A stretch of DNA of 64,000 nucleotides from Opeltia flavorubescens. Lineage: Eukaryota; Ascomycota; Lecanoromycetes; Teloschistales; Teloschistaceae. This document shows, piece after piece, positions 8,957 through 15,456 of this stretch; the stretch's first letter is position 1, and each line of letters starts with the position of its first letter. The DNA lies in the NCBI GenBank assembly GCA_000442125.1, contig KE546970.1:310001-374000 (forward strand). Reading direction: 5' to 3'. The notes beneath the pieces were generated by a model. It was not told the origin of the DNA. It saw nothing but the letters and a program-made list of their open reading frames with translations, and searched no databases. Made by a program: the position numbers and the translations under genes.

Positions 8957-11900
8957 ATGTCTGACAATTCTACCTTCCATGGCGATATCGCCATCGTCGG
9001 CATGGCCTGCCGTTTTCCCGGTGCCAACAACCTGGACGAATACTGGCAGTTGCTTCTTGCTGGAAAATCGATGCATACAAGAGTTCCATGCACGAGGTTC
9101 TCACAGGATAAGCTTTGGCGGCTTGGAAATGCTACACCCGAAACATTCTGGGGTAACTTCCTCGATAATCCGGATTCGTTTGATCACTCTTTCTTCGGCA
9201 TCTCTGCTCGCGAGGCAACGTCCATGGACCCCCAGCAACGGCTAGCCCTTCAAGTCGCTTATGAAGCTGTCGAGTCAGCAGCTTATTTCGACGTATCGAC
9301 AACTTCTCGCTCCGTTGGAGTCTTCCTTGGTGTTGGTTCAGTTGATTACCAGGATAACGTTTCATCAAATCCTTCCAATGCCTTCTCTGCCTTAGGAACA
9401 CTTCGCGCTTTCATCAGCGGCCGCATAAGTCATCACTTCGGCTGGACCGGTCCTTCGATTACCTTCGATACCTCGTGTTCCTCGTCGGCCGTGGCAATAC
9501 ATTCAGCTTGCAAGGCCCTTCTTGCAGGCGAATGCTCTGCCGCTTTGGCTGGCGGCGTCAATGTCATCACAAGCCCATTACTCTATGAGGACTTGAGCAA
9601 GAGCGGGTTCTTGAGTACGACAGGACCATGCAAGCCCTTTGACGCTAGGGCAGATGGATACTGCCGCGGTGAAGGTGCGGGCATGCTCTATCTCAAGAAG
9701 CTGTCTGCTGCTACAGACAATGATACAATACTCGGCATAATCAGGTCCTCGGCCATCAACCAAGGGGACAATTCCACTCCCATCACCGTTCCACATGTGT
9801 CATCACAGACGAGTCTTTATCGGCGTGTGCTAGAAACATCTGGCATGGAGGCATCTCAGATCAGCTTTGTTGAAGNTCATGGCACCGGTACCCTGGTTGG
9901 GGATCCTATAGAATTCGAGAGCATCCGCCAGGTTTTCGGAGGACCAGAGCGCAATGATACGCTATTCGTAGGGTCGGTGAAGGGAAGCATTGGTCATACT
10001 GAAGCGGCATCTGGTGTGGCAGCTGTCATTAAGGCTGTGCTAATCCTTCAACACGAAATCATACCTAAGCAGTCAAATTTTACACGGTTGAATCCCAAGA
10101 TCAAGTCACTCCAGCCTACTCGCATAGAGATTCCAATCCAGACTCGAGTTTTGGATGGAAACTCTGTATTTGTGAGCAATTATGGAGCAGCGGGTAGCAA
10201 CGCCGCTCTGATCATCTGTAAGCCGCCTGCCTCCAGGCTTGCGAAGCAACGTACCATGGTGGATAGGATTCAATTTCAGAAGTATCCGATCCTCATCACC
10301 GCTCACTCGGAGACGAGTCTCCGCTCTTTTTGCGAGGCTCTCCGTAACTGTCTGAAAGAAGAATCCTTGCCCAAAAACAAAGCTTTAAAGCTACCAGATG
10401 TTGGATTTGCCTTAGGACGAAGGGCGAATCGATCACTTCCAATCAGCTTCTCGACTTCTGTCACATCACTACCGGAACTTGAGGAGGCTCTCGCAGACCC
10501 AGGATCTCAGATCCGTAAAGTACTGCCTAACAAGCAGGTGACAACGAGCCCTATCGTGCTGTGTTTCGGCGGTCAAAACAAGAAATCAGTTGGGCTCTGC
10601 GAGGACGTGTATCAAAATTGCGCGCTCCTGCGCATGCACCTCGACTCCTGCGAATCGATTTGTCGATCTTGTGGTGTATGTGACTTCTATCCGCATATTT
10701 TTGAAACGGGAGATACCAGCGATATTGTTCTCCTCCATGCCATGCTCTTTTCCCTTCAATATGCATGCGCGAAGGCTTGGATAGAGTGCGGACTTCTTGT
10801 GGATGTGCTCATCGGGCATAGCTTTGGATACCTCACAGCTCTATGCATCTCCCAAGTGCTGTCCCTGGAACAAGCTTTGCAGCTGGTAATCGGCCGTGCA
10901 AGGTTATTCAAGGCTCTCTGGGGGGCTGAGAAGGGAGCAATGTTGAGTGTTGACTCTGACTCTGGACAGATTCATGATCTCTTGGCTTCGGTTTCGAGTC
11001 TTGAGTCCGCTCCACATATTGAAGTCTCGTGCTATAATGGCCCAAAGAGTCACATTCTCGCTGGCTCGGTAAATGCTATCAAGACAGTCGAGAAGGTAAT
11101 TGACACTGAACAATCAACAAAATCATCCGGGCCAATGAAATACCGGAGACTGGATGTTACAAATGCCTTCCATTCGCACCTTATGGACCCCATACTACCG
11201 GAACTCGCAAGATTGGCTGAGAAACTTGATTACCAGGAACCGAAGATTCATGTGGAAGCTTGCACAAAATACCCAAGCCGGGCAATAAATGGCTCAGCGA
11301 TAGTACAGCACGCGCGCGAGCCAGTCTACTTCGTCCATGCTATAGAGAGAATTGCTGGTAGGGGGCCATGCACGTGGATAGAAGCAGGTACAGATTCAGG
11401 GATCACCAATCTGGCCCGAAACGCTATCCCCTTATCTATGCGTGATAAACACACCTTCCAGCCCAGCTCGTTGAGTCATGCGAATTCCATAGACTCGCTC
11501 ACAGATACCACAGTCAAGCTGTGGCGATCTGGAGTGCAAGTTAAATTCTGGCTCTATCACCATGAGGAGATAGCTCGGTACCACCAGATCATCTTACCGC
11601 CATATCAATTCGACAAGCCCAGTCACTGGTTGAAGCTTAATGATACCAAAATGCAGGCTTCAACGCAAGAAACCACGCAGCCAGGGATGTTGTCGTTCAT
11701 CTCCTTCATAAGGCCTCAAAACGAGCAGCGATCACTTGCAGAGTTTCGAGTACATATATCCAACCCTCAATTCAGACGCTACGTTGAAGGACATAGAGTC
11801 CTTGGCTATGGCTCATGTCCGGCGTCGGTACACATTCATCTTGCGGCACAGGCGATGGTTCATTTGATCAAAAAGGAATCATCGGCGGCCTCAGTTGTTA

Positions 11901-14900: not shown

Positions 14901-15456
14901 CCCAGCCGATGCAGAACGAGATTACGATCTCTGGGAAGCGGTCCAAGACAACCCCATCACGGGCTTCAACATCTCCAGCGCGCGTACACCTGGAGGTTGG
15001 ATGGCAACGCAAGATGCCCGTGCTAGAATCCCTCTACATATGAACTGGACGGGCCAAACTCTACCCATCCTCCTTGGCGCCTTGACTTCTGAGAAGAAAA
15101 AACAGAGGCAATCAGCATCTTCTGGTATGCAGCTAGCCCATCATAACAGCCATACCATCCTCCCAATGCCCCCGCTCTCGCGCATCGAGGCTATCAGTCC
15201 TCGTGCACAGATCATAAAGGGTAATTACCACACCCCGACTTATTTTATCCATGGCGATGAGGATGAGTTCATACCCGTGCAGGAAACTAGGGATACTTAT
15301 GAAGAATTGGTGAAGAGGGGTGTGCACGCTGGTATTTCGATCGTGGAGGGTGGGGGACATATGTGCGAGATGTTGGGGGTGCCGAAGGGGGATGAGAGGG
15401 TTTGGCAGGCTGTTGTTGATGGGTATGGGTTTTTGATGGAGAGGTTGAGGGGGTAG
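8957..15456 (+). CDS. Non-reducing polyketide synthase, KS-AT-PT-ACP-CMeT-hydrolase, lacking SAT
   Basis: join(8957..14375, 14498..15456), 2125 residues with one 122-base intron just before the last domain. KS: DTSCSSS with Cys174, HGTGT His308, [11 protein letters not shown]is347. Malonyl transferase: GHSFGY, Ser622. Product template: His946 in EGHRVLGYG and Asp1126 in [10 protein letters not shown]. One ACP: VDSL with Ser1299. C-methyltransferase: SAM loop [10 protein letters not shown] near 1585. C-terminal alpha/beta hydrolase of the HGGG type: oxyanion HGGG at 1811, Ser1893 in GWSTGG, Asp near 2062, His2094. All catalytic residues are present. The order resembles the synthases of methylated orsellinic acids (mycophenolic acid, austinol, andrastin families), which carry an N-terminal SAT of about 350 residues; here the protein begins directly at the KS. 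Codon 307 contains an N. It should make a C-methylated monoaromatic acid; the exact product is not readable. Confidence 0.95.

Follow-up and report, generated by a model that had tools for sequence, protein, structure and literature searches.

Starter loading in fungal non-reducing PKSs

In ascomycetes, an N-terminal SAT domain that loads the starter is counted among the minimal components of a non-reducing PKS (NR-PKS). Among the methylating enzymes, a release domain of the HGGG/Abhydrolase_3 type rather than a reductase is a criterion of group VI. Methylating NR-PKSs occur in groups VI and VII, the methylorsellinate and citrinin types, and a survey states that all of its 661 NR-PKS sequences contain a SAT (PMC5386248). 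Divergent SATs of methylating NR-PKSs are known to escape prediction software, as with prhL and trt4, and the same work describes Aspergillus NR-PKSs in which a KR replaces the SAT (PMC8582187).

Basidiomycete NR-PKSs have been shown to be primed in a SAT-free manner, malonyl-CoA alone being enough (PMC10401856). The clade XII enzymes CoPKS1, CoPKS4 and CrPKS1-3 are naturally SAT-less and active; they have the order KS-AT-PT-ACP-TE, carry no CMeT and produce hepta- and octaketides. ArmB tolerates the removal of its SAT, with malonyl-CoA alone usable and acetyl-CoA preferred. The ascomycete enzyme ACAS, on the other hand, is inactive without its SAT, and a free SAT gave no rescue. According to the same study, a characterised active SAT-less NR-PKS had not been reported from Ascomycota by 2023 (PMC10401856), and searches of open-access papers found none. 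Ascomycete candidates have been put forward: two Ophiocordyceps predictions read KS-AT-PT-ACP-HTH-MT and KS-AT-PT-ACP-Te (PMC11057048), and the skyrin PKS of Cyanodermella asteris is mentioned as lacking a SAT in a citing sentence (PMC11149221).

A methylating NR-PKS that begins at the ketosynthase

The gene considered here lies in a stretch of 64,000 nucleotides of Opeltia flavorubescens (C6:310001-374000), referred to below as the window. It occupies the forward strand in two exons, 8957-14375 and 14498-15456, which encode 2,125 amino acids. Exon 1, placed by the ORF listing and the splice model, opens with the start codon at 8957, and exon 2 encodes an HGGG-type alpha/beta hydrolase, the predicted release domain, recognised by Pfam BD-FAE/Abhydrolase_3 matches and motifs. 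The intervening intron of 122 nt (14376-14497, GTAAGT...TTAG) is the best placed among several possible splice combinations. The ORF that contains exon 1 (8942-14413) runs for 1,823 codons from stop to stop, against a longest open run of 221 codons in 200 base shuffles of 8957-14413, and the second exon carries the coding sequence on to 15456.

Pfam and NCBIfam matches give the domain order KS-AT-PT-ACP-HTH/CMeT-HGGG hydrolase, all on the forward strand. The ketosynthase (8984-10081, residues 10-375) has the active-site motif DTSCSSS, the acyltransferase (10475-11392, residues 507-812) has GHSFG, and the product template (11729-12613, residues 925-1219) has its His and Asp motifs; they are followed by the acyl carrier protein (12764-12961, residues 1270-1335, GVDSL) and by a C-methyltransferase with an HTH_51 part (13154-14161, residues 1400-1735). 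Two of these matches fall below the cut-off of their profile, HTH_51 with 34.9 bits (cut-off 50) and the product template with 96.6 bits (TIGR04532, cut-off 168), and the product template is also under the TIGR04532 cut-off in the relatives at C2:979k, C14 and C15. For the CMeT, the best relative of solved structure is the citrinin PKS CMeT 5mpt (E 7e-69). A preceding sequence-only reading had listed complete KS, AT, PT, ACP, CMeT and HGGG hydrolase domains, and the profile matches and the expected motifs bear this out; the motifs are read directly, and the catalytic roles of single residues are assumed. Single N bases occur in the window at 9876 and 29382, the former in the codon of the conserved E-x-HGTGT of the KS.

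The enzyme thus has the KS, AT, PT and ACP, with neither KR nor ER, that define a non-reducing PKS, and lacks the N-terminal SAT by which the fungal enzymes are also defined. The CMeT that follows the ACP and the HGGG/Abhydrolase_3-type release domain are those of group VI, a label that would hold by architecture only, since the KS tree described below includes no named fungal references. The product would most likely be an orsellinate-type aromatic acid, short and methylated.

The first in-frame ATG is that at 8957, and the KS begins at residue 10, nine residues after the start of the protein. That residue corresponds, in alignments, to residue 10 of the lovastatin synthase chain, a reducing PKS that is not known to have a SAT, and to residue 383 of CTB1. 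The earlier statement that the protein starts directly at the KS is correct. An in-frame TGA stands just 5' of the start, at 8939-8941 on the forward strand, and the first AG dinucleotide past 8924 is at 9048, already inside the KS. Because of this arrangement, an upstream exon could not be joined by a canonical intron unless the first strand of the KS were given up, and a spliced upstream exon coding a SAT, which would have overturned the sequence-only reading, is rejected on splice-site geometry rather than on RNA data. The caution about overlooked SATs (PMC8582187) does not apply here, as there is no N-terminal stretch able to hide one.

The upstream DNA and the neighbouring genes

The stretch between the PKS and its divergent neighbour extends from 8168 to 8956, since the neighbouring GMC oxidoreductase gene has its start codon at 8167; the spacing is accordingly 789 bases and not the 744 given earlier. 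That this gap codes nothing resembling a SAT, as had been claimed, is confirmed by several searches. Each of the six frames of 8252-8956 (705 bases) contains 8 to 15 stops, the SAT of the closest paralogue (on C14, see below) compared with 8000-9100 gives a best match of E 0.76, and PF16073, even with E allowed up to 10, has no match inside the window or close to it. A decayed SAT remnant ahead of the gene was also considered and rejected, neither the paralogue's SAT nor PF16073 matching there and stops standing in every frame. When the C14 SAT was compared with the whole window by tblastn, its C-terminal region gave one weak match of 32 residues (42845-42937; E 0.009 without composition correction), which lies far from the PKS gene and is probably due to chance. 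The 788 bp upstream of the gene have no second copy in the genome in a search that skips simple repeats, and repeated or mobile DNA ahead of the PKS was rejected because this sequence occurs once.

The divergent GMC oxidoreductase (6660-8167, reverse strand, Pfam) has its 3' end beyond 6660. Further to the left on the same strand lie a second GMC oxidoreductase region of two ORFs (3543-5638, Pfam) and, between the P450 and GMC genes, a region of two ORFs for a Fung_rhodopsin (PF20684) membrane protein (891-2265, Pfam). The cytochrome P450 is represented at the left edge by its C-terminal part (3-665, forward strand, Pfam), which corresponds to positions 263-429 of the 462 in the profile. The start of this gene is expected beyond the left edge; the ORF found there, L058:9118-9999, has no Pfam match. 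Visual inspection of the 10 kb beyond the left edge suggests a gene resembling a kinase gene and one for a large TPR/PPR-type repeat protein; the large protein to the right of the PKS is one that we take to be PRP6-like. No transporter, regulator or prenyltransferase is among the matches of the eight neighbouring ORFs scanned, and C6 has no further KS match close to the PKS gene.

SAT domains and NR-PKSs across the genome

The genome of 34.4 Mb in 23 contigs was searched with profiles in six frames, each exon being matched separately once a permissive initial screen had been passed. PF16073 matches 16 pieces with a threshold of E 0.001 and 17 when this is relaxed to E 10. Grouped by position, they come from ten genes, of which nine are followed immediately by a KS and the tenth encodes a fatty acid synthase beta subunit, whose SAT-like domain lies at C14:151637. 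TIGR04532 matches 18 pieces, corresponding to eleven loci of the NR-PKS kind, 3 extra pieces of those loci and 4 weak matches beside other KS loci. A KS match is present in ten of these eleven loci, and among the ten with both KS and PT a SAT is found in nine (by reading the ORFs at C14, C15 and C2:981k, and by profile matches and position at the other six); the PKS of the window is the sole exception.

The locus without a KS, on C3, was considered as a second SAT-less PKS and rejected. It consists of a partial PT, two ACPs and a TE (C3:2016139-2019459, reverse strand; L015, 261-1959), there is no KS match on the contig, and it looks like a truncated or split NR-PKS gene.

At the sensitivity of PF16073, the genome contains no stand-alone SAT at E up to 10, as all SAT matches fall in the nine SAT-bearing PKS loci or in the fatty acid synthase beta subunit. 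A free, very divergent SAT could escape such a search, given that the C14 SAT itself scores only 28.6 bits.

Ancestry of the SAT-less gene

The KS tree was built from 18 KSs, out of about 25 KS-like loci in this one genome; the seven loci outside it (C15:260k, C22:140k, C4:293k, C8:508k, C9:1345k, C21:295k and C13:150k) have no PT match. The ten NR-PKSs fall on one side of the tree (support 100/99), and within them the SAT-less enzyme is grouped with three other methylating PKSs, those of C14, C2 and C15, all of which bear a SAT (support 99/96). Its nearest KS is that of the C14 paralogue, with about 60% identity and a support of 85/87, so that the sister relation of the two has moderate support. 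The end branch of the SAT-less KS is the shorter one (0.26, against 0.47 for C14).

The C14 paralogue has about 350-372 residues before its KS, with a SAT match of 29.5 bits and the motif GFCIG. By eye, the GxCxG signature can be read in the SATs of all three relatives, as GFCIG, GMCTG and GYCGG. At each of the 14 motif strings chosen from the SAT-less PKS, the presumed catalytic residue or the glycine-rich motif recurs in the aligned C14 sequence. The release domain is an HGGG hydrolase in C14 and C2 and a reductase in C15. Splice sites that would allow the same junction residues, PV-AL, are found by eye at the same place before the HGGG part in C14. The HGGG part of C2 sits in a separate frame too, so the intron may predate the split from C14 and does not single out this paralogue. 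Frame breaks, probably introns, occur in the SAT, KS and AT regions of C14, and the SAT-less gene is open through its KS and AT.

Loss of the SAT on the branch of the SAT-less PKS was probably secondary, this being the simplest reading of a KS nested among SAT-bearing methylating relatives. Searches for relatives in other collections returned none among viral contigs and 18 PKS loci among genome contigs; the latter are exclusively bacterial, with 23-41% identity, and say nothing about the loss.

One further feature of the KS concerns the residue before the active-site cysteine. The Ser of DTSCSSS is unique among the 18 KSs of the tree, the other 17 having Ala or Gly, and in the 11 of the 18 bacterial loci in which the KS motif pattern was found it never occurs. 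It is a possible adaptation to SAT-free priming.

How the enzyme may be primed

As the front-end loading domain is missing, although the nearest relatives in the genome carry it, the SAT-less PKS probably starts its product in another way. On balance we favour a methylating NR-PKS whose SAT disappeared once it had diverged from SAT-bearing relatives and that is primed by its own AT and KS. The AT would load the starter, malonyl or directly acetyl, onto the ACP, and the KS would decarboxylate malonyl-ACP or take acetyl as the primer. The chain would then be extended, methylated, closed between C2 and C7 and released by hydrolysis in the usual way, and the neighbouring P450 and the two GMC oxidoreductases may oxidise the product afterwards. 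By analogy with the SAT-less basidiomycete NR-PKSs (PMC10401856), the most likely route is loading by the AT with decarboxylation by the KS, or else direct loading of acetyl; the inactivity of ACAS without its SAT, described in the same paper, counts against it. The two routes offered by the sequence-only reading thus fare differently: self-priming stands as the likeliest, and a SAT partner in trans, suggested to lie perhaps past the left edge, finds no support in a genome where PF16073 lists no free SAT. That this ascomycete gene encodes a methylating NR-PKS which is naturally SAT-free and still catalytically active is put more cautiously, as something a little short of an even chance.

Among the alternatives, the gene could be a 5'-truncated and recently inactivated copy, with an intact frame and an enzyme that is unprimable or unstable without its SAT. 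The precedent of ACAS (PMC10401856) points in this direction, as do the retention of the SAT by the nine other NR-PKSs of the genome and the PT-ACP-ACP-TE fragment on C3, which implies that truncation occurs here. Against such decay, however, stand 2,125 codons without a stop and with their motifs kept, a start codon placed nine residues ahead of the KS, a KS end branch that is short and oxidase-type neighbouring genes, and we regard an inactive copy as unlikely.

The starter could also be supplied by another enzyme, whether a free SAT or one belonging to a different PKS, or else a fatty acid synthase or reducing PKS passing an acyl group directly to the KS. The SAT-like domain of the fatty acid synthase beta subunit (C14:151637) and the many further KS loci of the genome would provide candidates. 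This explanation is nonetheless quite improbable, because no free SAT appears at E up to 10, albeit in a search limited by its loose initial screen, with the C14 SAT itself at only 28.6 bits, because C6 has no other KS match near the PKS gene, and because a SAT supplied in trans failed for ACAS (PMC10401856).

Finally, a SAT exon missing from the gene model or misassembled is very improbable: the evidence comes from a single genome with one N inside the KS (9876), but the in-frame stop is followed by no AG acceptor until the KS interior, the upstream DNA occurs once in the genome, on a contig of 1.9 Mb, and runs into the divergent GMC gene, and every SAT match found belongs to a PKS or a fatty acid synthase.

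Comparison with known systems

If the enzyme is active, the SAT would be dispensable outside mushrooms and within the methylorsellinate-type family, with the AT and KS taking over priming. A natural SAT-less case together with SAT-bearing paralogues in one genome would offer matched pairs for a direct test, and the SAT-less PKS could serve as a compact synthase for engineering.

With the C14 paralogue the enzyme shares the CMeT, the HGGG hydrolase and the place of the splice site, whereas the SAT is present only in C14. The order KS-AT-PT-ACP-CMeT is also common to the methylating NR-PKSs of groups VI and VII (PMC5386248), the SAT being missing only in the present PKS. Like the clade XII enzymes, it has no SAT and starts at the KS, but it differs from them, as they are described, by its CMeT (PMC10401856). 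The Ophiocordyceps and Cyanodermella asteris PKSs would lack the same domain according to predictions and a citing sentence, respectively (PMC11057048, PMC11149221). The KR-bearing Aspergillus NR-PKSs are equally devoid of a SAT, but they have an N-terminal KR where the present PKS has nothing (PMC8582187). SAT-less NR-PKSs are thus already known in basidiomycetes and predicted in ascomycetes, and a methylating SAT-less ascomycete gene adds a variant to them.
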